Part shown: piece by piece, positions 30,806 to 60,742 of the stretch
Layout of the letters: each line of letters begins with the position of its first letter
Numbering within the stretch: position 1 is the first letter of the stretch
NCBI GenBank assembly: GCA_023105745.1
Contig: JALGQZ010000001.1
Location: 56,191,437 to 56,255,436 of the forward strand
Reading direction: 5' to 3'
DNA: 64,000 bases
From: Austropuccinia psidii
Taxonomy: Eukaryota > Basidiomycota > Pucciniomycetes > Pucciniales > Sphaerophragmiaceae
Program-made: the position numbers and the translations under genes
The notes under the pieces: model-generated
Told to the model about the DNA's origin: nothing
What the model saw: only the letters and a program-made list of their open reading frames with translations
The model's database searches: none

Positions 30806-30847
30806 CACCAGGGCAAATCTTGCGTCAATTGTTGGCGATTGACTTCA
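30806..30847 (+). repeat. Left terminal inverted repeat (42 bp)
   Basis: Begins CACCAGGGCAAATCTTGCG and pairs with the complement of 60698-60739. The six mismatches are one transversion and five transitions. Similarity continues weakly for about 20 bp further (a GATAAAA/TATAAAA word in both). Confidence 0.93.
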
Positions 30848-30978
30848 CGCCGCACCGCAGTCAGTATAAAATCTTGCTTCAGTTGTGTTAGTGTCACTTT
30901 ATAGTCACTGGATTTAGTGGGTCACGTCACCTCAGTGTCAATAAAACGTCAATCTTCACATGTGTCACATGAGAATGT
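30822..30978. repeat. Left subterminal GTCA-word cluster
   Basis: About ten GTCA words, many as TGTCAC or GGTCACGTCACC, lie within 160 bp of the left end. The right subterminal 110 bp also holds several in TGTCAC, GTGACA and TTGAC contexts. Clustered short motifs next to the ends are what CACTA-type transposase or TnpA-like proteins bind; that role is inferred. Confidence 0.55.
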
Positions 30979-31173
30979 CACTCAAAGCCCAAACCCATCT
31001 AAACACTATTTTCAATGTTCAGGTAATTTCACCTCATTGGCTTTCGCATCCTTGCCTACTTCTCCCCAACGCTTTGCATGCTTATGCACCCGCACCGCCC
31101 TCCAGATGAGACTCCGGAACTGCCCCCCCATCTCTGCCCTCATCACTCCTTATGCTTTCACACCCCCGCACTT

Positions 31174-31377
31174 ACCATCTTTACGCTTGCATGGTGCCCT
31201 CCCGACATTCCTCCGCCACCGCTAACCATCCTTATGCTTGTGTAGTGCCCTCCCAACATGCCTCCAACACCGCTAACCATCCTTACTCTTGTGTAGAGCC
31301 CTCCTCATATGCCTCCAACACTGCTTACCATCCTTACGCTTGTGTAGTTCCCTCCTGACATGCCTGCGATGTTCCCT
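31174..31377 (+). repeat. 51-bp tandem repeat array, four units
   Basis: Units begin at 31174, 31225, 31276 and 31327 with an exact 51-bp period. Each starts ACCATCYTTA and contains a GCTTG or CTCTTG word, a TGCCCTCC-like block and CCTCC. Flanking DNA (31080-31170, 31440-31550) holds looser relatives with CTTATGC and CACCCCCGC words. Because 51 is divisible by three, a 17-residue repetitive frame is open, but I see nothing else to suggest it is translated. The 14-mer TCCTTACGCTTGTG (31331-31344) recurs exactly at 36754-36767. Confidence 0.85.
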
Positions 31378-31679
31378 CACACTGGCCTAATCCTCAAAGC
31401 CGCTTATGATCCTTACCCTCCTGCTGGGCCCTCAAGATGAGATTACGATGCCGCCCCCATCTCCACCCTCCCGCGGTGCCCTCAAGAGATATGCCTCCGA
31501 CACTGCCCTCAATCCTCCTTATGCCTCTGCACCCCCGCCACTTACCATCCATAGTGTACGGTGGCTTGTTGGCATACACAATCAATGCAATCAAGGAAAT
31601 ATGCTGAGTGGCCTTCTCTGCCAACAGGACCTAAGGGGAAATTGGTCAGTATATTCACAATTTTGTGATTAGGTTTTAA

Positions 31680-32264
31680 ATCATTAGACTCACAAAACGA
31701 AACCTAATAAGCTGACTATTTAAGACAAGAATTGTGTCTCCTGTTTCCCTGACAAAACCATCTTATTTCATATCATTCAAATGGAACACCTTGCTTAGTC
31801 CTTACCTCATGGGAATTGAATAGTTCAAAAGTTGACTTGAGTAGGTTTCTCACTAGTCCACTGTATTCCATGTCTCACAGGGAAGTGATTTCATTTGCAT
31901 TATATGAAATAATTTGCAAAACATCGCCTCCTTCAATTTCCCGACAAATTGTATTTTTCAAATGCAATACAATTTTAATAGAAGGTTCCAAGGCTGTTGA
32001 TGCGCAGGTTTATTTTGGTCAGCTTGTGGTTCTAAAATGTATTTTTTCTCGAATATTCAATAGCTCTTAAACTGCTTTAAATTGATATTTAACTTCTTTC
32101 AAACTCACTGAAATTCTCCAATATTACCCAAAAAAGAATCAATTATTTTAAACTTATTTTACTTCCACCTTTTTTCTTCAATTTTGATCTTTTTATTCAA
32201 AAAGTTTCAAAAAATTTATCAATCAACTTGTCACCATCTATTTGCTTGATAAACTACCTCTGCT
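31680..32264. other. AT-rich spacer upstream of the first cargo gene
   Basis: No coding signal. It becomes T-rich and then A-rich shortly before the ATG at 32265, and presumably holds that gene's promoter. No specific box can be defended. Confidence 0.4.
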
Positions 32265-34961
32265 ATGTCCCAAACCCCAGGAAGGTCAACTGAATTCAAT
32301 GAACTATCAACTTCAGCCCCAGAGAGTGGAAGTGAAATCTCTGATATGGCCAGTAGTCATGAATTGGTCATTGACATAGAGAGCCAGTCACATGAATATA
32401 ATCAATATCCACCAGTTCTTCCAGAATGTGAGTATTCATCCATCTTGAATATTTCAAATCTCTCAAAACATGATATTGTGTCATAGCCTTTATTTCAGCT
32501 CAGCCTCCAAGCTCTCAGAAACCAAATTTTAAAAGCTATGAGAAGGAAAAGACTGTTGAACCTTGTGCACCAACAGAAGATCCTGGGCAAGATGATGTAG
32601 TTTTTAGTGGGGAGGTGGAAATTATATCCAAGGAGCAATTTGTCTCAAACATTGCTCAAACAATCCCAATGCTTGAAAAAATGCAAAATGATAGTAAAAT
32701 TCCTGATTATGTGCGTCAAAAGATTGCTGAAGCAATGAGCCTCCTCAAAATATATTTGAACCGTAAGTCCATTACTAATTCAATACAAAAACATCAAAAT
32801 GGCTGCTTACAATATATGGGAAGGTGTGGAGGTGGGAGAATCTCTACCTGAAGGATCTCGAGTGGTAATTGGAATTCCAGGCAAAAGATTAGGAAAAAGA
32901 CCAAATATACATGCCACCAACAAAAAACGCCGTACCTTTGAAGCCGCAAAAGATTGCCGGTATTAGGGTGATGAAATGATCAATGTTGAAGTGGTCCATA
33001 TGGATAATCAACCTCCACATACTGAAATCCCCCCCATACTCAAAGAAACAATTGATGATGAACCTCCACATACTGAAAGCCCCCCCATACTCAATGAAAC
33101 AATCCATGATGAAACCCCTCCCACCTCTCCTCAAAATATTCAAGCCTTTCAAGAAAGGGAGACAATTAAACATGATACAATGGGCAAAGATATGACTGAT
33201 ATAATTCCCAACCTTGAGCCCGAAGTGTCATCCTCTGCTAATTTTCAAGGAATATTTACTCCCGCATGGAAGAGGTTGGAGACATTTTAAATTATCATTG
33301 CAATATTACTCAACAATCGTGAACAAGGGGGCTTGATAATATCAATAGGATCTACAAAAGTTGATGGGACATTTTACCAACAAAGGATGCTCATACATTC
33401 CTGCCCATTGGTATTAAGATGATCAGTAACCAAGAGCTTAAAATTTCAGCCTGGCTTGAGGACCTTGACATGGCAGGTGAGTTTTATCTTTGTGCATGAA
33501 ACGTGATTATTGGCTGTTGACTGGTGATATAAATTGCAATATACAGGGTTAGATTTTTTTAAGCCAACAGAAACAGAAGTGTTTTTTAATAACAACATTT
33601 GGAATATCAAATTGATGAAGGAATCAGCTAAACCTTCAGATAATCTCCCAAAATCTGAACACTCCTTCTTCAAAATGGTTCAGAGCCTTCTTTACCCTGC
33701 CAATCCAGTTAAATATTGTAGGGAAAATGTTATGTTTGAATCAATTAGTTTAGTCTCATACAATGTGATTGCACCCAAACCATATGTGGCACTAACATCA
33801 AATTTGACCAATGCTCTTTGACTTGAACGGGGAGCAGTTGAATACCTTGCTTCCTGCTTGAGTAAATTGAAGAAACGTGCAACACAACTTAGCATTGAAG
33901 GTGGTGGGGCTGACAATGAGATATCAAAAAAGCCGTACAAGAACCTGGAGGATCTAATGGATACAGTTGTCCATTTGATGATTGCGTACAACATGGTATG
34001 TGCACATACAAAGGTTGAAGTCAATGGCATCAAAGGCAAACTCACGAGCTCCAAAAAAAATGAGGCCATCAAAGATCCTTTGACATGTCACAAGAATCTC
34101 AGAATAAATTGAATTTACTATGGTATACTAGCCGCTTTCTGTGCCGCGGGGTTTTGTGGTTTGATTGTATGCTCAGATGACTGGAGAACAAGCTCAGTTA
34201 AAGGGGCTTTACCATTCATTGACATTTCTGAAAAACTTTCAGAGGGTAAAAGTCTAGTGGAGCCGGTGTGGCTATGTACTAATAAGTATATATGTAATTT
34301 ACTGAATAAATGTTTCTTCTCATCAGAGTCTTTTAACCCCACTGTACCTCCTAGATTTTAATTTGCACAATGCTTGGTATTAGAATTTGGTTATGCCTGG
34401 GTGGTGAAGCATGGTCTTGGTTTGAGTGATGAGGTCATATTGACTGTACCCAGGTCAGCTAAACTTACAGCCAGGATTGACCCATTTTAGATTAGCTTTG
34501 TACTAGATAGATTGCAATTGAATTTTGCAAAGTTATTTAAAAATTTAATAATCGTTACTATCTATCCTACTACTGCCCGGATGCCACATTATGAATACCA
34601 ATAATAATTTTATGGAGGCATGCCTCCGTACACCATTGAAAATACTCCAACAAGATGCAAAATGAATCAGGCAGTTGTGCCCTCAATTTGCACACGCGGG
34701 GGCATTGCGAGAAGTGGGTTTTATCACTTCCCCCCAGCCCATAATAGGCCAAATGGCCCTGTTCCTTTCAAGAGGACTAGTATAATTAGGGATGTGCAGC
34801 AGGGTGCATATTGCATTCATGCGGGCTTGCAATATTCCACATGGTTGTATTGGAAAGTGATTGAATGGGAACATCAATATGTCAAATTGAATAATGCACT
34901 ATCCACTGCATTTTTCAAGTTTAGGTACTTGAGATCGCAAATTTGCGAAGGTCAGGTGTGA
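32265..34961 (+). pseudogene. Cargo gene 1: multi-exon protein of unknown function, decayed
   Basis: I recognise no domain. Exon 1 starts at ATG 32265 (Ser/Glu-rich). A 71-nt intron (32428-32498, GTGAGT...TTTCAG) keeps the frame into a second exon with an acidic stretch and a helical segment (ISKEQFVSNIAQTIPMLEKM). A second donor (GTAAGT) is at 32763. A later exon has two imperfect PPHTEIPPIL-type repeats. Another, after a GTGAGT...ATACAG intron (about 33477-33546), gives LDFFKPTETEVFFNN and continues in one frame to 34961, with stops at about 33821, 34112, 34361 and 34490. The final segment is rich in Trp, Tyr and His. It could be one gene or two, or the N-terminal part of the Tet-like gene downstream. 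Confidence 0.6.
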
Positions 34962-35341: not shown

Positions 35342-36373
35342 AAGGCCTTAGGTTCAAATGGGAGGAAGCGGTATCTGATATCTTGCCTGCTTCAACACAA
35401 AGTGATCCCTCACCAACTTGGGAATAGTGGGACATCCCAAAAGACAAATGAGGGCAAAATCACCCAAAATAATAAGGTTTTTTCCTCCTCTCGACCAACA
35501 GCACAAATATCAATGCCAGTATCAGAAAATATGACCCCAAGTGAGATTTGGAGGCTTGTGGATGTCAATCAGATCAAATGCATTCACTTTGGGCCCATGG
35601 CAATTTTCTCTTAAACCGGATTACTCATTGCCCTTGTTGAATTCAGACCATTCACAACAATTAGTGAAGTCAAGGTCAATCAATGGGATGAATTATCACA
35701 ATTCTTATTTTGCAAAAGAAGATTCACCGACCCGATTGCAATAAATGGGGCATTACTGGAGGGATTTATGTTCACAATTGGGTGGTGCAAATGCAGCACA
35801 AAGAATGAACAATTTGGTCTGTATGGAGGTCTTGGGAAAATTGAAAACGCAAAAGATGAATGGCAGAACCGAGGTGCCAATCTTAGCTTGGTGGGTTGCA
35901 TTCTAGGTCAATCCTTACAATATGCTGGGGATAATTTATTTGAGAATATTCAAAATTGCTACAAGTCATTGGGTGTTCCGTCTTTTGAGCAAGTTAACTA
36001 TGAAACCAATATTCCTGCAAATAAGGGTGCATTCAAGTTTGCTTCCGCACTCACTTTTACCATGAATGGATTCAAAAACGCACCTCATGTTGATAAGGAT
36101 GCATCGCTGTATGCTTTGGGACGGTGGTTTCAAGCTGATAAGCAGACCGGCCAAATTCAAAGAGATGCATCAAAGCGGTGTACAAGGGGAAAATTGATTT
36201 TCCCAAATGAGCATTTTTGGATTGATCTATCCGAATGTCATGGCCTCATTCAGCTAGCATGGGCCAGTAGTACATTTGTTCATTATACTGATCCAGCACA
36301 GGACAACAAAAGCACAACACTAGTGGGTATGTCTGCACAATTCTCAAGGAGGTTAGCCAAAACAATGTGCTGA
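35342..36373 (+). pseudogene. Cargo gene 2: Tet/JBP-like 2OG-Fe(II) dioxygenase with one internal stop
   Basis: One frame is open from about 35342 to the TGA at 36371-36373 except for TAA at 35612-35614. Upstream of it is IHFGPMAIFS and downstream is TGLLIALVEF, the N-terminal strands of the fungal Tet-like fold. The C-terminal core shows the Fe(II) motif HxD in NAPHVDKDAS, then FPNEHFWIDLS, a distal His in STFVHYT and an Arg in GMSAQFSRRLAK where the 2-oxoglutarate-binding Arg is expected. The family oxidises 5-methylpyrimidines in DNA, and basidiomycete members are known passengers of transposons. The active-site set looks complete, so the stop is the main visible defect unless it is intronic or miscalled. 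The true start may lie further upstream. Confidence 0.82.
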
Positions 36374-37196
36374 AAAAGCCACGGCTATTATGAGGTTGGC
36401 GAGGGAGCGGGATATCAAATCAAAGATGTTCATACAATCTCATCCCAATTCAAAGAATGAGGAGATTTTCATGTTTGTTGGAATTGAAGCATGATTGTTA
36501 AATAATGGTGGGGAAAGGCAGAGGACAATATACACCAGGATTGGATGGTTTGGAGTGCGGGAGATAGGGTGGCTCACATGAAAAAGGGGTGAAATGGATT
36601 GTGTATGGTGGCATGCCATCATAGATATGTCCTGGATTGTTGCTCTTGTCCAGGATCCCAATGCTTCACACGTGAATCCTTACGATTGTGCAGGTTCCAA
36701 CAATGCTAGAAATTCCTTAAGCCTGTGCAGGCTTTCGACAATTCACATGCAAATCCTTACGCTTGTGAAGGTTCCCAACAATTCAAGAAATTCAATACAT
36801 GACTAAGATTAATAGCGTGTGACCATAGGAAAGGCAATGTCTCATGAATCTGCAGTGGATTGCTCACATGCAGGGAATGCCCGCATTTTTACAGTCAAGA
36901 TCTGATATGGTTGTCAACCATATCAGAAGAAAATGTAGGAGGCGGTAATGGTGACTATTTGCGCATTTTTGGCAAAAGAGGTTCTCACAAACAAATACTG
37001 ACTCAAACATTTGTCGGGGCACTTACAAAGATTATTCTCACACAATAGGTGCTTTGCACAAATGGCCAAAAAGGAGAATCTCCCGCGAAAAAAATATATA
37101 ACAAAAATGGAAAAAAGTGTGTAGTGATTACAACAAACTAATTTGAAAGAGTGTATTACAAAATTAAATAAAAGGAAAACAATTTTTTTTTGAATT
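36374..37196. other. Spacer with internal repeats between Tet-like and Zn2Cys6 genes
   Basis: Contains two to three diverged copies of a unit with TCCTTACGMTTGTG, AGGTTCC and AAGAAATTC (36667-36796), then AT-rich DNA. The two neighbouring genes converge here, so it should hold both 3' ends. No gene is supported. Confidence 0.5.
36667..36796 (+). repeat. Internal repeat sharing a 14-mer with the left-end array
   Basis: Two clear units (about 36670-36715 and 36747-36796) plus a partial one. Both have TCCTTACG[A/C]TTGTG followed by AGGTTCC. TCCTTACGCTTGTG at 36754-36767 is identical to 31331-31344 in the 51-bp array, suggesting a common binding word or a captured subterminal fragment. Confidence 0.6.
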
Positions 37197-38482
37197 TTAT
37201 TTTTCTAAGTATTTGGAGACTATCCTGGTGATGTCCTCCTTTGGATAAGCCTCCAATTCCTGTCCAAGGAGGGAGTTTAGTTCCTCCCTGAATTCCCAGT
37301 GCATCTCATCTTGATGAGTTTCATCCACAAAAGGAATCATGTGTAGCAAGTGGCAATGCTCCAACAAGATTTGGTTGATGGATTCATGGATGATGGCTTG
37401 AGGAATCATTAGTGTTGGTCGCAGGTCAGTGAATTTGTGGCAAGCATCATTGTAGGAATGAGAGGAGCTTGGCACCGAGGGGAGGAGGCGGTTGGGTTCT
37501 CAGAGGCAATGGGAGGGAGATCCGGGGTAGGAGTGGAAGGTGGCGGAGTCAGAGCAGGAGAAATGGGAGGGAGGATCCAACAGGGGTATCGTCAATGATG
37601 ATGATTGAGCGGGGAGTAGCAGGACAAGCTGGAGATGGGCAAAGGAGGGGTGAGGAAAAGTTGGGAAGAGTTAAAAAAGTGAAGTTGGGACTTACCAAAA
37701 GGTTCCTCCATGGATTGTGTTGGAGCCACCTCTGGTTCTGGCTCATGAGTCACAACATCCTCAGGTGGTTGAGAGGATGGACCCGGGCCAGGAATAGGTG
37801 GCTCTACAAAAGGAGGAAGAGTCAGTTGGCTTGAGTCAAAAGTGGAAATTAAATGAAACTTTTGCTGCTTACTGTGGAATAAGTCCTCTGACCATTGGGT
37901 GCCACTCGGGCCAGGAGTGGGTTGCTGCGGGGTTTGCTCACGAGGCATACATTAAACAGGTGAGTCTTGTTGGGGGGGATTTGGTGGGTTTTGTTCTATG
38001 TGTAATGGAAAAAAGTCAGTATGATTGTGTGAACGGAAATGAATGAAGGAGGAAAAAGAAAACTTACTTTGGCGTTTGAATCCCATGGGTGACAGGACAT
38101 GGTGATGATTCACCCAAGCTCGAATGTCCTCTCACCATTGCCATCCTTCATCGGCCGGATAATCACGTTGCTCCAGTTGAGGAGTGAAGTGACCATTGGA
38201 TTGTGGCCTAGCAGGAGACAGGGCTAATTGTCTGGAATCATTCCCGCCGGCCTGTTTGGGGTCCCGGGTCCATTCCCGCTTGGGAATACTTTCATCATCA
38301 TTGACCACAAAGATGTCCTTGTCAGGGTGTCTTGGGCGGGAACTCCTCTGGACACGTGGTTGGAAGGGTCAGACAACGAACAAGCATTTCTTGTGTGCTT
38401 GTCGGCAAGCATCACAAGCATTGGTTGTTGTCAAGGAACAAATGCAAGGGATACCTCCCTTAATGCATAAAGTGCATGACAT
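37197..38482 (-). pseudogene. Cargo gene 3: Zn(II)2Cys6 binuclear cluster protein, decayed
   Basis: The minus-strand ATG at 38482 opens MSCTLCIKGGIPC ... ACDACRQAHKKC. The six cysteines at residues 3, 6, 13, 23, 26 and 33 are spaced C-x2-C-x6-C-x9-C-x2-C-x6-C, exactly the fungal Zn2Cys6 (Gal4-type) DNA-binding consensus. The frame runs to a GTAAGT donor at 38067 with two TGA stops (38369-38371 and one in GWQW*ED). Downstream, a Pro-rich segment (37948 to about 37695, PGPGPSSQPP) ends at another GTAAGT donor, and a C-terminal acidic/hydrophobic segment (37475-37197) follows after at least one frame break. A sequence-specific DNA-binding role is expected. On a transposon it could act like the TnpA of CACTA elements or as a regulator of cargo. 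Exon joints are approximate. Confidence 0.7.
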
Positions 38483-47618: not shown

Positions 47619-47635
47619 TTCCCTCCCCCTAAAAA
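47619..47635 (-). promoter_or_regulatory. Polypurine tract of element D
   Basis: On the minus strand the sequence TTTTTAGGGGGAGGGAA runs straight into the LTR terminus TGTGAGCC, the standard plus-strand priming position. Confidence 0.85.
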
Positions 47636-47663
47636 AGAATATTACTTTGTAATATTGGTATTT

Positions 47664-50600
47664 CTAGTGTGTCTGAATCTCCTGAGGAGTTTGGTAGCTT
47701 CTGGTATATCTTTTTTCTTCTAACCATTCATCTTCACAAGTTGGGTCACTGTACCTAACAAGGTATTCCCTTACTTTCTTGGCTCTTAATTTCCATTCTT
47801 TAAGAACTTTGGTAATTTTCTTAGTACCAGATGTCTCAATAGGAGGTATAACTTGGGGAATCTTATTCCTCAAGGGAAATTTCTCAGCATCACTAGATTT
47901 ATATGGCTTTATCAAGCTCCCTGGAAATGTAGGATGCTTATTGCTAAGTTCTTCAGATAGCTCTACTTCAACAGAATTTTCTCCATGGAGGGCCTTAATC
48001 ACAAAAGGTCCTGCAAAGGAGTCTTTCAACTTTTTACATCCTTTGATGTTATTGAAGTTAGTGGTGGATACAAGAGCTAGGTCCCCCACTTTGAAATCTG
48101 GAGTTGCATGTGATTTATCCCATTTGTCTTTAGCATATGCAAAAGAGTCCTCCATGCACCTTACTGCACGCTTTCTAGCTTTGTCTAGCATTCCTTTGAA
48201 GCTAGCAGCTGTGGGATGTATTTCAATTAAGTCTTTTCTCAAGGAATCCTGGGGTAACTTGGGGTTCCATCCTTTTTCTAGAATAGCAGGAGTCTAATTG
48301 GTACTGGCATGGATTGATGTTTTATATGCTAATTCCAGTGCTGGAAAAAGAGTACACCAATCATGGGTATATCCATCACAATCTTTGAGTTCATAGCCAT
48401 ATGCACAAAATCTTCTCACCATGTCCTCTAAGGTTTGGATCATCCTTTCAGCCAGGCCATCAGGTTTTGGGTGGTAGGCTGTAGAGAAAGACAGTTTAGT
48501 GCCAAATAATTGGTGAAGATTTGTCCATAGTGCTAAAGTGAATTTGGGATCCCTATCACTAATGATATTTGTAAATATCCCAGTCCATGACACTAGTCTA
48601 TTCCATATCAGAAGAGCTGTATCCATGGCTGTATCATCTATATGAAATGGTAAAAAGATTGGAGTTTTACTGAATCTGTCCACAATTACTAGGCAAGCAT
48701 TATAGCTTCTGTCACCTCCTGGTGGTAGGCCAGTTACCCAATCCATATGGAAAATTTCCCAAGGTCTGTTTGGTTCTTGGATTTTTATCATATTTCCAAG
48801 TGTCTTGCAAGTGGATTTATTTGCCTTTTGGCATCTTTCACAAGTTTTTCAATACTCTGTAACATCTTTCTGCCACATTGGCAACCATATGCAGGTCTTT
48901 AATTTTTATCTTGTTCTGTCTTCAGACAGATGTCCTGAAAAGGGACTATCATGGCATTCTTTTAGTACAAGATTGATTAATGACCTGTCTACAACTGTCA
49001 TGACACATGTGTGCTTGGTTCTGTGGTAAGTTATACCATCCAGTAGGTGAAATCTTTTTTCATCATAAGATTTTCTCCATACTTCATCCAAGGCATGTAT
49101 TAGAGAGTTGTCTTTACAGTCTTTGTTAAGTAATTGGCATAAGATGCTACAATTCTTATCTTGAGTGTAACTGTTTCTGACTTCTTCAAAGAAGGTGGTG
49201 TTTAAGTCTGTAACACTTATTCCTTCCATTGGAATTTGTGGTGAACCTTCTTCTGGCACATAAGCAGGGTTATCAATATTATTTGGTAATGGCCATTTGC
49301 TCAGTCCATCTGCATTCTCATGAATATTCCCATCTTTATGAACAATAGTCATATTTTCTCTGTATTCTTGTATGGCTATTTGCCATCTGAGCATATTTCT
49401 GTTGGGTGTTTTCATGTTCAAAAGTGATTTGACAGCTGTACAATCTGTTATTACCTCAAAAACACATCTCTCTAAGAAGTAGTTCAATTTCTCCAAGGCC
49501 CAGACAAGGCATAGACATTCCATCTGACTTGCTCCATATCTGGCTTCAGTTTGTTTGATTTGCCTGGATATGAAACACATGGGTCCTTATACAGCTTTAT
49601 CATTTATGATCTGAACTTGGTGAAGTGCAGCACCTAGCCCATCCCCTGATGCATCAATATACAGTTTGAAAGGTAATTTAAAGTCTGGCATCAGTAAGAG
49701 TGGAGCAGTGGTCAAGGCTTCTCTTAGAGACTCAAAGGCTTTGACTCTGTCAACAGTCATTTCAAATACTGTGTCTTTGTCACACAATTTATAAAGTGGT
49801 CTTGCTATGGATGCAAAATCTTTAATGTGTTGCCTGTAATATCCTGCAAAACCTAAGAATGACTGAATTTCCTTCTTGTTCTGAGGCATGGGTTTTAGCA
49901 ATACTGCTGCAACTTTGTTTTTGTCAATTCCAAGGGATAAACCAGATACAACATGTCCTAGTGCCTTAAGTTCTTTAAATCCAAAATGGCATTTCTTCAA
50001 GGAGATTTTCATGTTGACTGATTGAATATTTGTCAAAACTCTGGACAATCTGCACATGTGCTCCTCCCAAGTCTTGGAACAGACAATAATGTCATCAATG
50101 TAAATGATTAACCATCCCTCTGAGAGTTTTTTGGGGAAGATTTCATTCATCATTATTTGGAAGTGTGAAGGTGCATTTTTGATACCAAAGGGCATCCTCA
50201 AGTATTCATAAACTCCACAATGAACAATAATCCTCAAGTATTTTCTTGCTCTTTGTGTCACCACATTTTGATTAAATCCTTTAAGGGAATCCATAGTGGT
50301 TATATACACTGCTTGAGATATTTGAGTAAGGGCAATTTGGATTTTTGGTATTGGGTATCTGTCTGGAACAGTGTAAGTGTTCAGAGCTCTAAAGCCCCCA
50401 ACCATTCTGGATTTTCCATTATGCCATGCCACTATGACTGGTGTAGTTATTTCTACTTCTTCATTGTGGCCTACTTTTCTTATTACACCAAGGTCCAGAA
50501 GTTCTTTGATATGAATTTCTAGAGCTTCTCTTGATTTTGGACTTGCTGGATAAGCAGGTCTTCTTAAGAGTGGTGGATAAGGTCTCTCAATGTTAAGAAT

Positions 50601-53339
50601 GATGTCAACTTTATGACCAATAATTGCTCCTAGAGGTTCTTTGTCTGTAGCAAATGCTCCTCTGTGGTCATACAAAAGGGAAGAAAGTTCATTTTCTTGT
50701 TTATAAGTCAGATGAAGGCTTATTTCAGCCTCATTTAACTGTTCAGACTTGAATTTCTCTAACTCTAAGTTGACTGGTGATACTTTGTTTACTGTAATTT
50801 GTCTTTTAAATGGTAAAAAGGCAAATTTTTGGTGCTTATTGTCTCCAATTGTAAAGTATCTGTCTTTTTTATTATGTAAATCTATCCCATACATGATTAA
50901 ATAGTCATTTCCCAATATAAAAGGGGTACTAGAGCAATTGTCCATAACAAGAAATTCAACTGTGATTCTTAAATTCCCATTTATGTGTGGGAATATGACA
51001 TTGGTCTCAAATACTCCTAATGCTTTCATTGGGTTACTTGCACTGTTGAATTTTATACCATCAATTGGTAACAATTGGTCTTCAAACTTTTGTACACAAG
51101 TCTTAAGAAAAGATTTTCCAACACAAGAGCAGATGGCTCCTGGGTCAAGTAAAAGTTTGGTGGGCTTGTTGTCAATCACCACTTCTGTTATACAGGAGTT
51201 ACCAGCTGTATAACCTTTTCCTCTTTTTGGTTTTGTTTTCATAAGTTGTGCATCTTGAACCTTTGATAAATCAAGTTGACCATTGCTCAATTGTGGTAAG
51301 TGGGAATAAGATTCCGTGATGTCAAAAGTGGCCTTGATATTTTCTATATCTTTTGAAGATTCAGAAAATATGGATGACTTATCATCTGAATTGTCTTCAA
51401 TTATGTCTTCTTTTTCAACATCTGGTTCCTTTTCAATGTCAATTTCATTTATTTTTCCCCTTTTTGGACATGTATTGGCTAAATGGGTGGTGCTTTGGCA
51501 AATATGGAATTTTCTGACTGTATCTGCAGATTTATACTTAATATTACTAGAATTTTCTTTGGGATTCTTGTCCACAGAATCTTTCCAAGGTGTATTAAAC
51601 CTTGTTTTGAGATTCACCCTACTAGAACCAATTTTGGCTCTGGTGGTTACTTCTTCTAGTATATTGATAATATCCTCTGCTGAAGATTGTTCAGTAGTGC
51701 TGCTCTTGACAGCATGCTCTAAGTCACCTCCACATTGTCTCAGAATTTTCCTATGTATCATAAATTCTGACATGTCAGGATATAATTCTGTTAATCTGTC
51801 TTTTTGTTGGCAAAACCATGGTAAAGCTTTGTCTTTATCACCATTAAATTTGGCAGATTCAAAGGCTTTTTCAACTTTAAACCTCCAAGCATCATTTTCC
51901 CATTTGTTGATGATTTGGGTTTTCCACCAAGTCCAACTCTGGTGTCCATGTGCTTGTCTTATTTTGATATACCATCTGTGAGCTGATCTGGTAAACAAGG
52001 TGTTAAACCTGGCTGTTACCAATCTGTCTGGTAATTCAAAATGCTCTTTGATCATGTCAATACCTCTAATGAATTCCATATGGTCATACTCTCCTTCACC
52101 ACTGAAGTGAGGCCATTCTTTAAGTTTTGGAACTTCTTTCAAGAGTGCTTGGCCCATTGATGGTTCCAAGTTATGAAAAGAAGTGGATAATTCATTTTTT
52201 AATTGTGAATTATCAGGATCCAATACTTGTGGATTTGGAATTCTTGTGCCCTCATTTTGATTTAGAGGTGTAGACATTCTTGGTAAGGTGTTCAGTATTT
52301 TTTCAATGTCATTCATTTTACTGTTGCTACACCTTTGGGAATTTCTGTATTCATGTTGGAAGCTTTGTATTAAATTTATTACTTCAATTTTATACATGTC
52401 TTCTTTATGTGTCAGTTCTTGCCATAACTCTGTCTGTCTTTTATTATCAGCAGTGACTTGATTCAATTTCATTGATAATTTTGATACTTCTTCTTGTGAA
52501 GCATCAAAACACTTTTTCAAGGCAATGGTATATGTCTTTACTTCAGTAAACAAATTTGAAATGTCATCAAGGACTTTCTTGCCATCTGTTTTGATAATAT
52601 TTATGGCTTGTTTAATTCTTGTTTCAATGATTTCATCAATATTGAATTTAGAATATTTATCTGTTAATTCTTTAATAATGGTAGATTGCTCATTTATTTT
52701 ATTGTCAAAAGAATTATCATTATTGGAAATTTTAATTGTTCTTAAAGCTTTTTCAAAACACATAAGTGTTTCATTAATTTGGCAAAGACTCAGGTTGTTT
52801 GTTTTAATGTTGTTACAAATGGTTTCATTTTTATCAGAAAGATGTTTTTTCACGTCATTTATAGCATCATACAACTCTGGGATGGAATCAAATATATCAG
52901 AAATCATTTCTGGAATCTTAATCTGGCTTCCTCCTTCTTCTGTAATTCCATCATGGTTCTGGCCATCTGAAATACATTTTCCATGGCATCCTGCTGAATC
53001 TTTGGAATTCTGTAGCCCTGGCTGTAAGGTTTTTGGGCTGGTGCCTTCCCTTTGCCCGTGTTTGGAGTTTTTGGCTGCTTTTTCACATTGGAATTGCTGC
53101 TGCTGGCCACTGGGGCTGTTTTTGGCACTGGTTTGGGTGGTGGAGGGTTGTTTTTCCTCCATTCTAGTGTCAACAGCATCATGTTTTTCTTTTCCATCAA
53201 TGGATGCCATCCATTGAGCAATTTGCAAGTGTTGGGATGGCCCAGGAATTTCCTTACTGTCAGGTAAGACTTCATGCAATTCTTCCACAGGTCTGCAAGG
53301 ATCTGGTACTCCTTGATTGAAGTGAATTGTTGTATGCAC
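47664..53339 (-). pseudogene. pol: Gag-Pol of element D, one frame with four nonsense codons
   Basis: A single minus-strand frame of about 1890 codons. Gag homology is at about residues 395-520 ([17 protein letters not shown]), with a knuckle missing its first Cys ([15 protein letters not shown]). Protease reads [13 protein letters not shown] near residue 732, DPG where the related copy C has DTG. RT has intact IIYIDDIIV. RNase H has [14 protein letters not shown]. Integrase has CLVIVDRFSK, IISDRDPKF and DGLAERMIQT. GPF module (FAGPFVIKALHGEN) and a chromodomain-like end (REYLVRYSDPTCEDEWL) close it. In-frame stops: 49587-49589 in RNase H, 48906-48908, about 48850 in the integrase zinc module, and 48294-48296. 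Homology of the upstream frame (52904-53566) to copy E suggests Gag continues into it by a frame change. Confidence 0.93.
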
Positions 53340-53566
53340 TGTGGCTGGCTTTGTATATGTCCACAGAGGCTTGTTGTGGCGGTGTCAGCTCTTTTAGAAG
53401 TTAAAATAGTATTATCAGCTTCAGAATGACCCAATTTAGTTGTTTGGAAGTCATCAACTGACCCTTTTCCTTCTTTACCTGATTGGCCTCTTGCATAATC
53501 ACATCTATTACCTTTTTGGGAGCTGCTTGAGGGGTTATAGCTGGCTCCTGATCTGGTTGAAGGCAT
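52904..53566 (-). CDS. gag: Upstream Gag frame of element D
   Basis: A 220-residue frame starting [13 protein letters not shown] and overlapping the start of the long Gag-Pol frame in another frame. It contains [18 protein letters not shown] and [17 protein letters not shown], then a Pro/Lys-rich segment and a helical end ([14 protein letters not shown]). Copy E keeps recognisable pieces of the same peptide ([18 protein letters not shown]), evidence that this is the genuine N-terminal Gag. How it is joined to the overlapping Pol frame (frameshifting or splicing) is not shown by the sequence. Confidence 0.7.
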
Positions 53567-53584
53567 AATTATGGTTAAAAAGGC

Positions 53585-53836
53585 TTAAAATAGTAATTTT
53601 ACGTCAAAAGACTTACTATTGGCCAAATCTTTGGCTTTCTGAAGAGTATTACTTATGTCCAAGTTAATCAATTCAGAAGATATTGGTTCAGGTTGGTTAT
53701 TATGAGTCCAAATAACAGTACTATTATGGTCTAAATTAATAGTACTAGCAGGAATAATGCTGGTGACTGTTGAGGCTGTTTCAATGTTTTCTTGTCTTAC
53801 CATGTTGTCAGACACTAAAATTAATGAAAAAACCAA
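53585..53836 (-). CDS. Short conserved frame upstream of Gag in element D
   Basis: An 83-codon frame between the primer-binding site and Gag. From the internal Met (MVRQENIETASTVTSIIP) onward it is clearly alignable with the equivalent stretch of copy E (about 61285-61485), with conservative differences and one stop in E. A GTAAGT word (53611-53616) near its end and ACCAG sequences at the Gag start would allow a spliced leader, but E has lost that donor. Unknown function, or the true N-terminus of Gag. Confidence 0.4.
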   Translation of the reverse strand: MVFSLILVSDNMVRQENIETASTVTSIIPASTINLDHNSTVIWTHNNQPEPISSELINLDISNTLQKAKDLANSKSFDVKLLF

Positions 53837-54020
53837 TTATTTAAGTAAAAAAAAGGATATTTCAAAAAAGAAATAAAAATATAAGCCTCACTTATAATAT
53901 GAAAAAAAAATATATTTTATTGATTTTTTGAATTATAAGTATTTTTTATATGTTTTTAAATTTTTCAATATAAGAAAAAATATTTAAAAAGAGTAAAAAA
54001 ATATGTCACAGGTAAAATAT

Positions 54021-54036
54021 CATGGCTGGGCCCCCA
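54021..54036 (-). promoter_or_regulatory. Candidate primer-binding site of element D
   Basis: On the minus strand, two bases after the 5' LTR, the sequence TGGGGGCCCAGCCATG has the TGG start and GC-rich character of a tRNA primer-binding site. Copy E has TGGGGTGCAGCCATG at the same place (61700-61714). I cannot name the tRNA. Confidence 0.6.
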
Positions 54037-54038
54037 AA

Positions 54039-55877
54039 TGTAAGGTGTGGATATGAAACTTTGATTAAAAATCAAGTACTTTTCCTGTTCTCAAAATTTG
54101 TATAAGGTAAAAATCAATTAAAAATAGTATGAAATATTATTTTTAAGACAAAACACGCCAATTTTATTGTTTATAACTTTATTAGTATAAAACAATAATA
54201 TTATAAAAATTTATTGTTTTACCAACAATAAAAATTTATCCAAAAAATACTCTACAAGAGATATTTTAGGGCTACAAAAGAAATTTCTTCAAGAGCAATT
54301 TCAATTGGAATTAATTGAGCAAAGAACTGCAAGCAATTAATTAAAGAACAGAGTCTTCAAAAAGAATATTAAAGAGAAAACACGTGCAAAAGTGACCAGA
54401 GTGAATTTGGAAACAAAGTGACAAAGTTTACAGTGATGAAAGATGCTTTAATTCACTTTTGGGGTGGTTCAGGGGTAAAAATGATTATAAGAATTACAAA
54501 CAGTGATTATAATGATTTTTTCACGTGGTTAAAAGTCTTAAAATGATTTAATAAAGGTGGTTGGAATCTCTTATTGATTGGTTTAACAATGTTTAAACTA
54601 ATTATAAAAGGAAAAGATTCTAACATGAAGAGAAAAGTGGGGCAAAGAAGACATTCTTTTATAGCCATCAATTTTCTTACTCCAAACGTAAAACTTACTC
54701 TTGTCGGTCGTGAAAAACAGTCTGACAACAGAAAAGCCGATTATGGCATCATTGAACCCTGGTTTACACCAAAAAGGGCTGGTTTAAGCCATTTTTGGCC
54801 ATTTTTAGCCATTTTAGACCCTTAAATCAGCCATTACTATAGCAATACCAGGCCTAGAGCCTTCAAAAAACGTCAGAATGTGTGTCAGAGGCGTAGAAAC
54901 CAGTTAAAACTGTTTTTACTATGATTGTTTTAACTTAAGGGTAGTTTTACCCTCTTGGCAACAGCTAAAACTACCCCAGTTGGTATCAAAACCTCATCAT
55001 CAATTGAGTCCACAGACCCTGTAACTCAATTCCAGGCCAAAAGTGATGAGCTTTTGCGTGAATTTTGACATCCCACGCCTGTCAGAAAGGATTTTGGGGG
55101 TCTAGCTCCCCCTTAGAGCTGGAGTTCCTTTTCCCCCCCAAATTTAATCTTTCCAATTTATTTTTCCTTTAATTCCTCATCATGTATTATACTTATAATT
55201 TACATATGTAATTCAATTCAATTGTACAGTACAATACAGTAACAATTGACACCTCATATGTAAATCAAAGTTCACTTATGAAATACACGCGCACATTTTG
55301 ACATTTCAATTGAATTCAATTGAAAATACTTCAATTCCTCATAACTTCTAAACTAAACACAACACCTCAATTTTAACACAAAATTTGATGGTTAAAACCA
55401 CATTTGGTGTGAATTGAATTAAAGTTTTGAGGATTTTCAACTTTTGTATTGAAAATACTAAAAACTTAATTTAAGCTTATTTAGAGTTGAGTTACAAGAA
55501 TTTCACTCAGAGGTGACCCCACCTGATTTGTTATGAGGAATCCAATGGTGAAATAATTTTTATATGTTTATTTATTGGATAAAAAATTAATAATAATTTT
55601 TATTTAACTTTTTTCCAAATTTATTTATTTTTCACAATTTTGTTAAAATTTCATTTTTACTTAATTTTTTCAAGTATAAATGTAATTTTACACTTACAAA
55701 ATTTAATGTATTTTTATTTTTATATTGTAATTAATTTTTTTTTTATCTTTAATATAATTTTCTATTTATATTTTTATTTTTATTTTAATAATATAAATAA
55801 ATTTATTTTATTTATATTAATATGTTTTTTTGTATTTGTGGTCTTTTGGGTATATGAAATTACCTCTAAGGCTCACA
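54039..55877 (-). repeat. 5' LTR of element D (1839 bp)
   Basis: Partner of 45795-47618, followed by the CTATG duplication. On the minus strand it starts TGTGAGCCTTAGAGG and ends CCACACCTTACA. Rich in A and T homopolymers near its U3 start. Confidence 0.95.
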
Positions 55878-55947
55878 CTATGCTAGATTCACTATCTGAG
55901 TCATGAAGAGAACCTGAACGGGATTTACGTGGCTTGGAAGATGACAT
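55878..55947 (-). pseudogene. Cargo gene 5, first 23 codons of exon 1
   Basis: The minus-strand ATG at 55947 opens MSSSKPRKSRSGSLHDSDSE, a basic then Ser/acid-rich start. The frame runs to codon 23 and one extra base at the edge of element D. Removing D and one CTATG makes codon 24 (Glu) complete, and the frame continues EYAQTQSPLSPN at 45789. This perfect rejoining shows that both parts are one exon split by the retrotransposon. Confidence 0.8.
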
Positions 55948-57086
55948 AAGGGCTAAAAAAGTACAGTAATTTTTTCAACTTGATAAAATAGAGTGATTTC
56001 AAACGTATAATAGAGAAATTGTATGAAAAGTGGGAACCAAGCCTCTTGTGGAAGTTTAATAAGACTATTTTTAGGAGAATTTTCCCTGCCTCCTCTTGAG
56101 CTCCTCTGCTTTTGTTGTAAACCACCCTGCCCGGCCTACCAGCATATAATTTGATATTTCCTTGATCTCAAAGGGGACCCATCATCCATAAGTAATCAGA
56201 TCCAATAAACATTTCACCCTACCCATTGTCACATTTTGTGAATTATCCAAACTGCCAATATATGCATCAAAATTACACAGAATTCTGTATCTGTATAAGG
56301 GTATATTAATGAGAGATTTACCCACAAAAGAGACACAACCTTCTCAATAAAGGCAAGACAATCCAAATCACATTCCAACCAATTAAAAGCCTGCTGCACT
56401 AAAACCAAATAACAAGACTTTAGCTCCACTCCAAATGCTTATGTAATAGATTTATATTGTTATGTCTATAATAAGGTTTAAACCATGTACAATGGTGTGC
56501 CAGAGTACATGGTCTGAATGTTAATCCCCTCAATTCAATGTTGACACATCCCTAATGGAACGCCCATCAAGGGTCAAAACCAGAGTATCACCATGTTTGA
56601 ATAAAAGAGAATATGTATAAGCATTGAGCAGCATGGCAATTTACCCAATTAAACTCCTAACCAATTCCGCCATCCAGATGAGACATGTTACACTTTATCA
56701 CCTGCAGCTCAGCCACCATTACAAATGGGATAAAATCCTCAGCTGGCTCAAATCATCTCCCCCTTCATAAATTGTCACTCAATTTTTTTTCTAATTAATG
56801 ACACTCCCAAACACTTTCACATCAGCCATAGATATTTATACACAAACCAACCTTACTCACGATTCCTGCAACAATAACAACCCGCCGCTATTCCTCAATG
56901 TGTATATGCATGTGTCAACACTTCTCAACCTAAACACACTCTTCCGCTGAGGGTGATAGGAAGGGAGTTGCCTTCACACCTTTCCAATATAAACAGCACA
57001 TTCAAAAGCTCAAATCAACCATTGCACCCAAATCTCTTCCAAACATCCCTACTTCTGCATCAGGATCTGAGTGCCCACAAATTCTA
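55948..57086. other. Spacer between divergent cargo gene 5 and the transposase gene
   Basis: About 1.1 kb, AT-rich with CCCC-containing patches, likely containing both promoters. I see no coding frame. Part of it may encode the lost N-terminus of the transposase, but nothing convincing is left. Confidence 0.45.
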
Positions 57087-60015
57087 TTGGATCAAATCTT
57101 CCTAGCTGATTATTTACAATTGACCCAAAGCACTTTCTCCACTCCAGCGGGTCCCAATTCAACTGCACAGAAACCATACAGTGGCAGTCAAAACCTTCCC
57201 CCACAAGACCTTGGAATTATAATATCTGCCATTCTATCATTAAGGTATAATATATCCCACAGGGCTCCACACATTCTCAACACTGCCCTGCACCTGCTGA
57301 TCAAGTCCAGTATTCCAAGCTCAGGTGGTCCCCCACTCCTGCATTCCATATACCTCAAGATCTCAGTACCATATTTGAACATCTCCAATTGGAGCCAGTG
57401 ATTCAAAACTATATATGTTGTCCTCAATGTTTCTTCCTTAATGGCCTTACTGAATCTGTCACAACTGACCAACCCCACTGTCAACGCCATAATGACCCAA
57501 ATGGTCATGATCCCCCTTGCACACAATCATTAAGAAAATTCATCAATTCATTTGAACCCCACACACAAAACACAACCAACATCAAAAAAAACTTATACCA
57601 ACAAAACATTTCATTTATCAACCATTCAAAAATTGGCTTTCCAGATTTCTCCAGCGGGCTGGAATTATGGAAATTCTGAATCAACATCAACAATCCCAAA
57701 CTCCCAAAGGTTCCCCCAAATGTGACATCTGGGATGAATTGGTCTGGAGACGCTTCACTGGCACTAGAAATATTCACAACCCCCCATTCATGTCCATTCC
57801 TGGTGCATTGGCCTTCTCAATTTATGTGGACTGGTTTAATGCACATGGAAAGTCAACCCGGTTGGCCAGCATTGGACCTATCATGCTCATTTGTCTTAAT
57901 ATCCCCCCAAGTGAGAGATTGAAGCCAGAGAATGTCTATGTTGCAGGAATAATCCCTGGTCCAAAGGAGCCAGCTTCCCTTCAATTGAATTACCTATTAA
58001 TGCCACTCATCAAGGAGCTCAAAGAGCTATGGCAAGGTTACCATTTTTCACCCACCTCAACAGGTCCTTCAGGATCTTTTATTGGTGTTGCCATTCTCAT
58101 GGCCATTGTGGATGTGGTTGCCATGCGCATGCTTACTGGATTTATTTCTCATTAAGGAAACCACTTTTGTAATTTTTGCACTATTCACAAAGCTCGAATT
58201 GAAGAAATTGGTCCTCAATTTCACTACACGTGCTCATACCAAAATCATAAATCAACCATTGTGAAATGGCTTCGGGCATCCCCACGATAAAGACAAGCAA
58301 TTTTTTCTGAGTATGGAGTGTGATATTCAATTTTGGAAGACCTTCCGTATTGGGATGCAACCAGAGTGGTTAATCTTGACATAATGCATAATTTAATACT
58401 TGGAATTTTGAAGGATCATGCAAATTTCAAATTGTGCATTCCACAGTCCAAATCAAAAATTTACTTCAGGTCCTGCAGGAAATCCAATGACACCAACACT
58501 TCAGACTCCAATTCCATGACCTCCAACAGCTCTCTTGATAAAATCACATTGAGAGAGTCCTGCTCCCTGAGAAGAGGCGCAGAAAAAATAATAAATGAGT
58601 CACTCCCCACTACTTCCACCCAAAAATACTACCTCCCAATGCCCACCCCTCACACGCAACATCCATCTAGTGGTTCTGCGGAGATTCCTTCATTTGATGC
58701 GGATTACATCCCCTCTGAATTGGATATCAGTGCACTGAGGGATCACCAGATCAAGGGTGAGGCTCTGGAGCATCTCCGACAAATCCTATCTGATACCATA
58801 ATTCCCTTGTCATGGACAAGAGTACCCCGCAAAATGGGCTCCCCCTATCATGGTATTTGAAAGCTGCTGAATGGGCTCTCTTATACAAGGTCTATATTCC
58901 ATTTTTAATGCGCAGTCAACAGATGTTGTTAGATGAACACAAATTCACCAGCATGCAAAGAAACATGGGTCAATCAGAAGAACTTGCAAATGAACTAACC
59001 AAGAATACATTCCATTTGATTAGTGCTATCAACATTGCCACAAGTTGGACTGTTTAAATGGATGATGCAAATGCATTTTCTGAACATTGGAAATAATTCC
59101 ACCTTTCCAATCAACACCTGTTCCCAAAACAGAAAAGTAAACCAAATCATCATTTTGCTGATCATATTCCCAAACCCTTCCAACGCTGGGGCCCAGCACA
59201 AGCCTCAGCCACATGGGGTTATGAGCGCTTGATTGGAGTATTTGCAAAGATGCCAACAAATAACAAAATATGTACGTCAATTAATAAGATCAATATATTC
59301 ACATTGATTAAACACATGAACTGAATAAGACTAACTTCTTGCAACTCTGAATAGATGATTTAGATAAAACCTTACTTCAACCTATCAGTCTATGTTCCAA
59401 CCTTTCTATTCTCCTGAAATCCCCATCCGTCCCATGTGAAATAAAACAACTTTTTGAATCACAGCTGCCTTCCCCGTTCCATCACCAAAAACATAACAAA
59501 CCATCCTGCCATGACCAAGAAAATTATAGTTGCCTGGTTGAGTACTTACAGAATTTTCATTCCACAAGGGAAATAGTTGAATGGATCAGTTTCGACCCTA
59601 ACATACAATCCACAAGTCATCCCACTTCAAGGATTGTCTCACCTTGTTCTTTTCCAGTTTCAAAAATTAATATTGGGAACAATATATCTTCAACTGAATC
59701 CGAAAATGTCAGCACCAGTGTGATATGTTTTCTGAGGGGTAACTCAGGAAGTTTTGGTGTTATTAATAGCATTTTTAAAGTCTCTGAGCCATCTTGCATG
59801 CTGAACAATAACTTTCTAATATTAAAAACTTTGAAGGTTGATGTGAATTTCTTACCAGATTGGCCGCATCTCAATATTTATAAAGCTGTTGGTTTTGATG
59901 ATGGAAAATTTATTATATCCAAAGAAGAAATAGAAGGTAACTGTGGATTGTTTGATAACAAAGTTATGTCATGTGGACTGCTTGTAGTGATAAAGCTGTT
60001 ATTTCATGATACTTA
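57087..60015 (+). pseudogene. Cargo gene 6: Plavaka/CACTA (Tnp2-type) transposase, decayed
   Basis: The cut-and-paste transposase expected to recognise the TIRs. Recognisable pieces in order: YICCPQC ... PHC (zinc-binding pair); CDIWDELVWRRFTG; MSIPGALAFSIYVDWFNAHG; LICLNIPPSERLKPENVYVA, then GIIPGPKEP; GFISH and HFCNFC; LPYWDATRVVNLDIMHNLIL with the family's Asp-x-Met-His-Asn block; SPYHGI and a LISAINIATSWT helix; YERLIGVFAKMPTNNK with the conserved Glu. A C-terminal tail (59720-60015) resembles the usual end. At least two frameshifts (near 57385 and 57650) and several stops (for example 58153, 58858, 59055) disable it. The initiator methionine is not certain. Confidence 0.85.
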
Positions 60016-60275
60016 GTCTACAAAAATGCAAATCTCTCAGATTCATTAGCAATTTTGCTAGTGAAATAACTGTCTCAAGATTTGGTGACATGAGACATGC
60101 AATTGTGACAAGAAAAGCCCATTATTTCACATTTCCACAAAGAAATTACTATTTTGACATTTGGTACAGTGTGAATAAGCCAATTTTAATGATCAAATGT
60201 CCCACACACACACCTATCACAGCATCCAAAATGTCCAACTGTGGCATTATCATGTTGGAAGGGGAATCAGCCCTT
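60016..60275. other. 3' flank of the transposase gene
   Basis: AT-rich, no independent coding evidence. It leads into the GC-rich right subterminal repeats. Confidence 0.4.
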
Positions 60276-60382
60276 ATGCACACGCTTACACACCCTCCCC
60301 CGCACGGGCACATACACATGCACCTTCCCCCGCATGGGCAGATGCACACGCACGCGCTTACGCACCCACACCCGTGGTATTG
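60276..60382. repeat. Right subterminal CA/CCCCCGCA repeats
   Basis: Short-period, C-rich repeats with CACACGCTTACAC, CCCCCGCACGGGCACA, CCCCCGCATGGGCAGA and CGCGCTTACGCACCC. They resemble words in the left subterminal region (CTTATGC, CACCCCCGCAC at about 31080-31175 and 31515-31550). Likely binding sites for an element-encoded protein; that is inference. Confidence 0.6.
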
Positions 60383-60697
60383 TGCGGCCAGATCTACCAG
60401 TGTCATCCGCAAAATGACAATCGCGCGGAGGCGGAGTCCTTTCATGGATGACCTGGTGAGGTGAAACCCCCCCCCTCTACATCAAGACTGGATGAATGAC
60501 CTCTTTGATGTGTGTGGGGAAACAGGCGGGTCTTGTGTAATTTTTACCAACTTTTGGATGGTTGAGGGAGGGTCCAGTGGTGAGGAATCTCAGTTGAAGG
60601 CACATGGGAACCAATATTGGTGGATGTCACAGGATTTGGTGTAAGACCAGAGTGTGACATGTGCTCAACGTGAGCTTGACTTTTATCCTGCTTGACC

Positions 60698-60739
60698 TGA
60701 GATCAATCACCGACAATTGACGCGAGATTTTCCCTGGTG
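60698..60739 (-). repeat. Right terminal inverted repeat (42 bp)
   Basis: Ends ...GATTTTCCCTGGTG on the + strand. Its complement starts CACCAGGGAAAATCTCGCG and matches the left repeat at 36 of 42 positions. Confidence 0.93.
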
Positions 60740-60742
60740 TGT
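60740..60742. repeat. Right target-site duplication TGT
   Basis: Identical to the TGT before the left terminus (30803-30805). Confidence 0.85.

Follow-up and report, generated by a model that had tools for sequence, protein, structure and literature searches.

A high-copy CACTA/EnSpm-type DNA transposon of the rust fungus Austropuccinia psidii with TET-like, SNF2 and Zn2Cys6-like genes among its cargo

DNA transposons of the EnSpm type that carry a TET gene have already been described in rust fungi. Kojima 2025 (PMC12730594) reports such families in Puccinia striiformis, with CAC..GTG termini and 3-bp target site duplications, as well as related EnSpm families in other rusts including Austropuccinia psidii; that paper proposes an escape from silencing and describes TET genes as moving between unrelated transposon types. 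Here we analyze a locus of A. psidii in a window of 64,000 nucleotides (the whole stretch of DNA examined, C1:56191437-56255436 of an assembly of 1.015 Gb in 84 contigs). Positions without a contig name are those of the window. The interval 30806-60739 is a CACTA/EnSpm-type DNA transposon of A. psidii, and the copy in the window is an old, decayed and broken member of a high-copy family. TET-bearing EnSpm elements are already known; the present family adds to them a SNF2 gene under constraint, a gene for a Zn2Cys6-like protein, two more genes and a pair of motif arrays.

The element resembles the EnSpm families of Kojima 2025 (PMC12730594) in its CAC..GTG termini, its 3-bp duplications, a Plavaka/EnSpm-like transposase, a TET/JBP gene in the interior and a rust as host. 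The words SNF2, Zn2Cys6 and ATPase have no occurrence in the main text of that paper, its supplementary element table apart. A transposon combining TET, SNF2 and Zn2Cys6 genes was not found in literature searches of the open-licence part of PMC, where it is named in none of the titles and abstracts listed; the supplement of Kojima 2025 or Repbase may list it. The original prediction had pointed to a link of basidiomycete Tet/JBP genes with KDZ and Plavaka transposons, and this link is not the best fit, since termini, duplication length and transposase fit the fungal EnSpm type of Kojima 2025. Plavaka elements of mushrooms are similar in having a tnp2-like transposase, in some cases a TET gene, and short duplications. 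However, PlavakaB has the termini CATCA..TGATG (PMC12730594), whereas the A. psidii element begins CACCAGGG, and its transposase scores just below the Pfam cut-off for Plavaka and higher for Transposase_21. The KDZ group (Kyakuja, Dileera, Zisupton) also comprises fungal DNA transposons with TET/JBP genes, but these have 7- or 8-bp duplications and another transposase (PMC12730594), while the duplication here is 3 bp in all six complete copies. The CACTA/CMC hallmarks of the same prediction, CAC termini and a 3-bp duplication, hold in all six complete copies: each has 5'-CAC..GTG-3' termini and a 3-bp duplication (6/6), and the transposase is of the Transposase_21 family.

We know of no plant CACTA element with TET or SNF2 genes. 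Likeness to plant elements exists in type and size, e.g. with a 20.5-kb CACTA element of soybean (PMC2613891), and in type with maize Spm/En, where the activity of TnpA correlates with demethylation (PMC10398659). The VANDAL elements of Arabidopsis provide a functional parallel: their VANC proteins bind noncoding tandem-repeat arrays of the elements, for which an element-encoded anti-silencing is proposed (PMC10398659); in the element described here the parallel consists of genes and arrays. VANDAL elements differ in being classed as MuDR (Kojima 2025, PMC12730594), and TET and SNF2 are not mentioned for them in the part of that article used here (PMC10398659).

The boundaries of the element and the repeats around it are as follows.

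30806-30847, plus strand: left terminal inverted repeat (TIR), beginning CACCAGGG; identical to the right TIR at 36 of 42 positions; the similarity of other loci starts there
60698-60739, minus strand: right TIR, 36/42 to the left TIR
30803-30805, plus strand: TGT, left target site duplication
60740-60742, plus strand: TGT, right target site duplication
27116-30805, no strand assigned: left part of the outer Ty3/Gypsy, the target of the insertion (27116-30784 has 82% identity to 49322-53024)
60740-63479, no strand assigned: right part of the outer Gypsy copy (60739-63479 has 80% identity to 53058-55881)
45795-55877, minus strand: nested, later Ty3/Gypsy of 10,083 bp, with long terminal repeats (LTRs) at 45795-47618 and 54039-55877 that are 96.9% identical, and a 5-bp duplication CTATG
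31969-32153, no strand assigned: 185-bp stretch of the window copy that the other copies compared lack, a gap when L002-L006, L008 and cA are aligned

A 26-base pattern built from both TIRs matched the window twice with up to 3 mismatches, and the two matches are the TIRs themselves (mean 0.00 in 100 shuffles). The predicted TIR pair with TGT on both sides was thus confirmed, and a paralogous empty site with one TGT adds to it: at the corresponding point the related Gypsy (49.3-55.9 kb) has no insertion and a single TGT. When the flanks of the outer Gypsy are joined minus one TGT, the alignment to this relative runs across the junction; hence the insertion with a 3-bp duplication is shown rather than assumed. 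The order of insertion is outer Gypsy, then DNA transposon, then inner Gypsy. The size of 29.9 kb given in the original prediction is correct for the interval and not for the element, because 10,083 bp, a third of it, is nested Gypsy; without this insert and one copy of CTATG the transposon proper measures 19,846 bp. Among pairs with a 10-base exact seed we found no convincing second TIR pair enclosing part of the cargo.

The search of the assembly with the TIRs that had been suggested along with the prediction did reveal further copies with the same cargo. With the first 95 bases as query, 2,200 first-look candidates yielded 40 scored matches; with the last 140 bases, 1,299 candidates yielded 40 as well. 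The first search provided eight loci including the window, and in the seven others the similarity to the left end starts at 30806 or within 2 bases of it. Ten more copies were fetched afterwards. The window copy and five others are complete; none of the five has large inserts.

Copy cA, C12:31442878, 20,014 bp, duplication TCA
Copy cC, C13:34023947, 20,838 bp, duplication AAT
Copy cD, C13:20504170, 20,869 bp, duplication TAA
Copy cH, C1:9383254, 20,840 bp, duplication TCT
Copy cJ, C1:15833097, 20,734 bp, duplication AGT

With TGT in the window, the six complete copies have six distinct and perfect 3-bp duplications. The order of the cargo is colinear in them: gene A, TET-like, Zn2Cys6-like, SNF2, gene B, transposase. 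The window copy aligns with cA over the full length except for the nested Gypsy, the 185-bp stretch and the repeat arrays; cC and cD align colinearly with cA, cH with cC, and cJ with cH. Copies cB, cE, cF, cG and cI are colinear with cC across the fetched DNA, in which none of their own right ends could be located; they are either broken by insertions or extend past the fetched stretch. Copies cH and cJ are 98.4% identical and have the right end GCCCCGGTG where cA, cC and cD have GCCCTGGTG; they are possibly a second subfamily. Another family copy, L012-L014 (C2:61587700-61617699), contains two inserted reversed stretches of its own family, each with the right end first.

The family is numerous. 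When up to 3 mismatches were allowed, a 34-base probe for the TIR gave 2,461 + 2,433 = 4,894 matches, which may include both ends and also related families, and a 33-base SNF2 probe gave 1,431 + 1,478 = 2,909; the reversed controls gave 0 in both cases. Pairing of ends with the SNF2 gene was analyzed in the first 100 places per probe. For 57 of the 70 exact left ends listed (C1 below 72.08 Mb), an exact SNF2 match follows downstream on that strand at a distance of no more than 60 kb, and 42 of these 57 pairs are spaced by 11-13.5 kb. The controls gave 4/70 for SNF2 on the opposite strand and 2/70 upstream on the same strand. The pairing indicates that the SNF2 gene is a regular component of the family, although not every end has an exact SNF2 match: 13/70 left ends have no paired match, and among the 100 SNF2 places listed, 42 lack a listed left end inside 60 kb. 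The large mobile element with TET, SNF2 and Zn2Cys6 genes that had been predicted is hence present at five other sites, and 57/70 ends are accompanied by SNF2. With some 2,400-2,900 copies and a mean length of 20 kb, the family would account for about 5% of the assembly; this is a guess on the upper side, because many matches may be fragments. CACTA is reported as the second-ranked transposon class in the near-complete A. psidii genome (PMC12774611). The numbers suggest that very high copy numbers are attainable for a ~20-kb DNA transposon in a fungal genome of gigabase size.

The genes inside the element were identified by Pfam domain scans on open reading frame (ORF) pieces of the window copy and of copy cC.

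32253-34358, plus strand: gene A, function not assigned; interrupted here and likely multi-exon (ORFs 32474-32848, 33528-33818, 33822-34109 and 34113-34358; 1 stop in the scored exon)
35615-36370, plus strand: TET/JBP-like 2OG-Fe(II) dioxygenase ORF (PF20515, E 1.3e-40; HVD and CHGLIQ motifs)
37200-38482, minus strand: gene for a Zn2Cys6-like protein, broken in this copy (cysteines clustered at ~38369-38482; 4 stops and gaps in the scored block)
41063-43420, plus strand: SNF2-type ATPase gene (exons 41751-42244, 42313-42960, 43023-43209 and 43268-43420, splice sites placed by eye; SNF2-rel_dom 4.3e-25 and 5.9e-9)
43790-45793, minus strand: gene B, function not assigned (ORFs 44240-44845 and others)
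56934-60013, plus strand: EnSpm (tnp2-type) transposase gene, disrupted here (Transposase_21, 1.1e-12; 6 in-frame stops and gaps compared with cC)

The Pfam hits and ORFs bear out the predicted cargo of a Tnp2-type transposase, a Tet-like protein, a SNF2 protein and two unassigned genes, with genes A and B matching no Pfam family above cut-off. In cC the TET-like domain reaches 2e-45 (155.8 bits; cut-off 27) and the transposase 1.4e-14 for Transposase_21 (54.2 bits; cut-off 28.6); for Pfam Plavaka this transposase scores 25.0 bits, just under the cut-off of 26.3. In three copies (window, cC and cH) the HxD motif of the TET-like protein takes the form HVD, not HxE; a histidine that we take for the distal one is also present. 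In the transposase, CNFC occurs in 5/5 copies checked and is a candidate for the C(2)C motif that fungal EnSpm transposases have between the second D and the last E; with D and E at their presumed positions, the pattern for the E motif matched in all five except cA. The SNF2 gene of the window copy has GLDKT as Walker A and DEAP in the DEAH position, whereas GLGKT occurs in 4/4 of the other copies checked. Copies cC and cH contain the SNF2 motifs DDMGLGKT, LTGTP and DRLHRIGQ, and the DEAH of cC is created across a splice junction.

The Zn2Cys6 protein was predicted correctly with respect to the six cysteines: translations of the window copy and of cC contain the cluster C-x2-C-x6-C-x9-C-x2-C-x6-C, and its spacing of 2,6,9,2,6 fits C-x2-C-x6-C-x5..12-C-x2-C-x6..8-C, which we take to be the family pattern. 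The Pfam profile Zn_clus did not support it, with 14.3 bits (window copy) and 15.0 bits (cC) below the cut-off of 21.

Three protein homologue searches were evaluated for the best 120 matches each, and every named match came from A. psidii. The TET-like ORF had 361 homologues, the best 120 all being A. psidii MF-1 proteins, and gene B had 476, the best 120 again all from A. psidii. No relatives of the TET ORF were found in viral or bacterial/archaeal contigs, none of the TET-region DNA in plasmids, and none of the TIR in viral contigs.

Selection on the genes was estimated as the ratio of nonsynonymous to synonymous substitution (dN/dS, NG86) in an alignment of five copies. This provided ten pairs, for five of which Fisher tests and masking of CpG changes were done; the pairs share branches and are not independent, and decay after insertion drives the ratios toward 1. 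For the main transposase exon dN/dS was 0.22 in cC/cH and 0.22 in cD/cH (P <1e-10). The values for the same two pairs were 0.13 (P 4e-5) and 0.11 (P 4e-6) in SNF2 exon 2, 0.37 (P 5e-3) and 0.25 (P 8e-5) in SNF2 exon 1, and 0.23 (P 2e-4) and 0.17 (P 6e-6) in gene B. For SNF2 exon 2 and gene B dN/dS stayed <0.25 in both pairs when CpG changes were masked (P <2e-3). The other coding blocks gave 0.51 (P 0.11) and 0.36 (P 0.014) for the Zn2Cys6 gene, 0.53 (P 0.29) and 0.15 (P 3e-4) for gene A (cD/cH masked 0.57, P 0.67), and 0.76 (P 0.6) and 0.35 (P 0.012) for the second transposase block. In window/cH the ratios are weaker: 0.42 for the transposase, 0.48 / 0.53 for SNF2 and 0.29 for gene B. SNF2, gene B and the main transposase exon are under purifying selection in the two clearest pairs; the signal is weaker for the TET and Zn2Cys6 genes and uncertain for gene A. 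Because the dN/dS values of SNF2 and B resemble those of the transposase, they support a function of both genes in the life of the element.

Two motif arrays were detected with Tandem Repeats Finder.

31174-31365, plus strand: array 1, subterminal, inside the left end (51-bp unit, 3.8 copies in the window copy)
36675-36790, plus strand: array 2, between the TET and Zn2Cys6 genes (~40-bp repeat, core common to array 1)

Both arrays contain the 14-bp motif TCCTTACGCYYGYG, which includes a CpG. Allowing up to 2 mismatches, we counted 9 occurrences in the window copy, 17 in cA, 22 in cC, 22 in cD, 23 in cH and 21 in cJ, always in forward and never in reverse orientation and always inside the two array zones; 0.1-0.3 matches are expected by chance (20 Markov resamplings). 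A conservation profile around the matches has a peak at the core in array 1, which is biased because the matches were selected by that core. Given the precedent of the VANC proteins, the arrays are a candidate target for a DNA-binding protein of the element.

The role that we consider most likely for the cargo set, at a little better than an even chance and judged from its sequence, is that of an anti-silencing kit encoded by the element. Gene A, the TET-like, Zn2Cys6-like and SNF2 genes and gene B travel as a fixed set with the transposase of an element of the cut-and-paste type, and in this scheme the set would help the element to escape from silencing. One of its products, be it the Zn2Cys6-like protein, A or B, would bind DNA by recognizing the motif repeated in both noncoding arrays. 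At these arrays 5-methylcytosine would be oxidized by the TET-like enzyme, and the SNF2 motor would open or clear the chromatin so that promoters and ends become usable. The host is reported to methylate young transposons (PMC12774611). A more specific version, conceivable and in our view rather unlikely, is a self-contained and sequence-specific machine, in which the element's own protein reads up to 23 copies of TCCTTACGCYYGYG and recruits the TET eraser and the SNF2 motor. If true, it would be a fungal, enzyme-carrying counterpart to the VANC systems of plants. As to how a diffusible oxidase would favor its own element, the presence of a constrained SNF2 gene, a cysteine-cluster protein and motif arrays next to TET offers a concrete, testable hypothesis for targeting. 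Intact and broken gene copies provide a natural comparison in a species in which DNA methylation has already been mapped.

Several observations weigh against an anti-silencing role. The first is the damage to the genes. Stops were scored in the reading frames of cC, which has zero by construction. Part of the TET block is ORF that precedes the probable start, and part of the second SNF2 block is intron, so that a few of the counted stops may be noncoding; gaps and inserted bases are further damage beyond these counts. The SNF2 and transposase genes are given as two blocks.

Window copy: A 1, TET 3, Zn2Cys6 4, SNF2 2+1, B 2, transposase 6+0
Copy cA: A 0, TET 1, Zn2Cys6 5, SNF2 1+0, B 1, transposase 0+0
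Copy cD: A 0, TET 1, Zn2Cys6 0, SNF2 0+0, B 1, transposase 2+3
Copy cH: A 0, TET 0, Zn2Cys6 1, SNF2 0+0, B 1, transposase 0+0

Most copies are damaged somewhere, yet intact-looking forms of the genes can be seen in this set. The copy in the window, whose state the original prediction overstated, is not intact, with six in-frame stops and gaps in the main transposase exon and GLDKT and DEAP in SNF2. Some motifs are also affected: the strict HxD pattern has no match in cA and cD, with LVD in the ORF of cA, and the SNF2 motif VI pattern, which matched in the other copies of the five checked, is missing in cD. The TET gene itself is only weakly constrained, with dN/dS of 0.50 in cC/cH (P 0.06) and 0.58 in cD/cH (P 0.19). 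Further pairs show weaker constraint: cA/cH gave 0.32 for the transposase, 0.32 for SNF2 exon 1, 0.50 for exon 2 (P 0.12) and 0.27 for B; cC/cA gave 0.52, 0.47 / 0.32 and 0.37, and in window/cA the second SNF2 block reached 1.52. Finally, the arrays may be ordinary minisatellites.

The mutational decay of the copies points in the same direction. Transitions derived in the window copy affect 39/91 TCG sites, 80/335 other CpG sites and 199/5,526 other C/G sites, and between cC and cD 27% of CpG sites and 1.9% of other sites differ by transitions. All four degenerate positions of the TIR probe are TCG on one or the other strand. The pattern fits the TCG hypermutation known in Pucciniomycotina (Kojima 2025, PMC12730594) and the CpG decay known for A. 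psidii (PMC12774611). A shielding of the element from CpG mutation by TET was considered and rejected in view of the strong CpG and TCG transitions; as the copies lose CpGs fast, their own TET gene is no shield. As a separate observation, the observed/expected ratio of CpG is 0.32-0.66 in five element copies, compared with 0.05-0.14 across five stretches of Gypsy sequence in the window; this contrast exists although the nested Gypsy was inserted later than the window's copy of the element. The higher ratio of the element may merely reflect age and source copies.

An alternative, possible in our view and still rather unlikely, is that SNF2 serves transposition itself, e.g. by clearing transposase or repair complexes from the ends or by freeing the target, with TET as a separate rider. 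The SNF2 protein does have relatives of a suitable kind: among solved structures, a 118-residue piece scores best with a Rad54-family helicase, a "Helicase-like protein", which we read as Mot1-like, and Rad5, and lower with DDM1, an order that also weighs against the anti-silencing kit. Nevertheless, sequence likeness among SNF2 proteins does not settle function, and to our knowledge SNF2 motors are not parts of CACTA transposition. In cC/cH and cD/cH the constraint on the SNF2 gene is similar in strength to that on the transposase and the constraint on TET is not, which agrees with a rider, as does the passage of TET genes between unrelated transposon types (Kojima 2025, PMC12730594).

There is only a small probability that the cargo is passive, i.e. 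that genes of the host, captured a single time, are carried along and do nothing for the element. Large CACTA elements do exist, such as the 20.5-kb element of soybean (PMC2613891), the constraint on A, Zn2Cys6 and TET is weak or non-significant in several pairs, and most copies have stops in some cargo gene. However, the dN/dS of 0.11-0.23 for SNF2 exon 2 and B (P 2e-4 to 4e-6) is robust to CpG masking and the gene set is colinear across complete copies; for SNF2 and B passive carriage is already disfavored. It is equally improbable that the TET-like enzyme makes a hypermodified base which marks the element's own DNA instead of erasing 5-methylcytosine. Such a base is left open for the PU type (Kojima 2025, PMC12730594), and the profile of the TET-like protein matched no solved structure by sequence, which is also a point against the eraser; on the other hand, Pfam recognized no glycosyltransferase or other modifying enzyme in the scanned ORF pieces. 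A chance pile-up of unrelated nested elements between similar termini, which a window full of nested repeats and an interval that is one third nested Gypsy might suggest, is refuted by the five complete copies elsewhere with matching termini, their own duplications and a colinear interior.

The remaining sequence of the window contains further repeats. Outside the element, positions 22637-23042 (minus strand) have 72% DNA identity to 35368-35772, the start of the TET region; this fragment is probably a relic of another TET-bearing element. The stretches 20834-23756 and 26013-27109 match flanks of the family copies L006 and L007 and are further repeats beside the outer Gypsy, which ends abruptly near 27.1 kb. 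Imperfect inverted repeats at 23190-23548 and 25112-25475 (71-76%) face each other at a distance of ~1.6-2.2 kb and are perhaps an old inverted-repeat element. A Gypsy-type pair in opposite orientation, 74% identical, lies at 31-4703 and 9938-14590, and its second member is bracketed by LTR-like repeats at 7562-9271 and 15866-17480.

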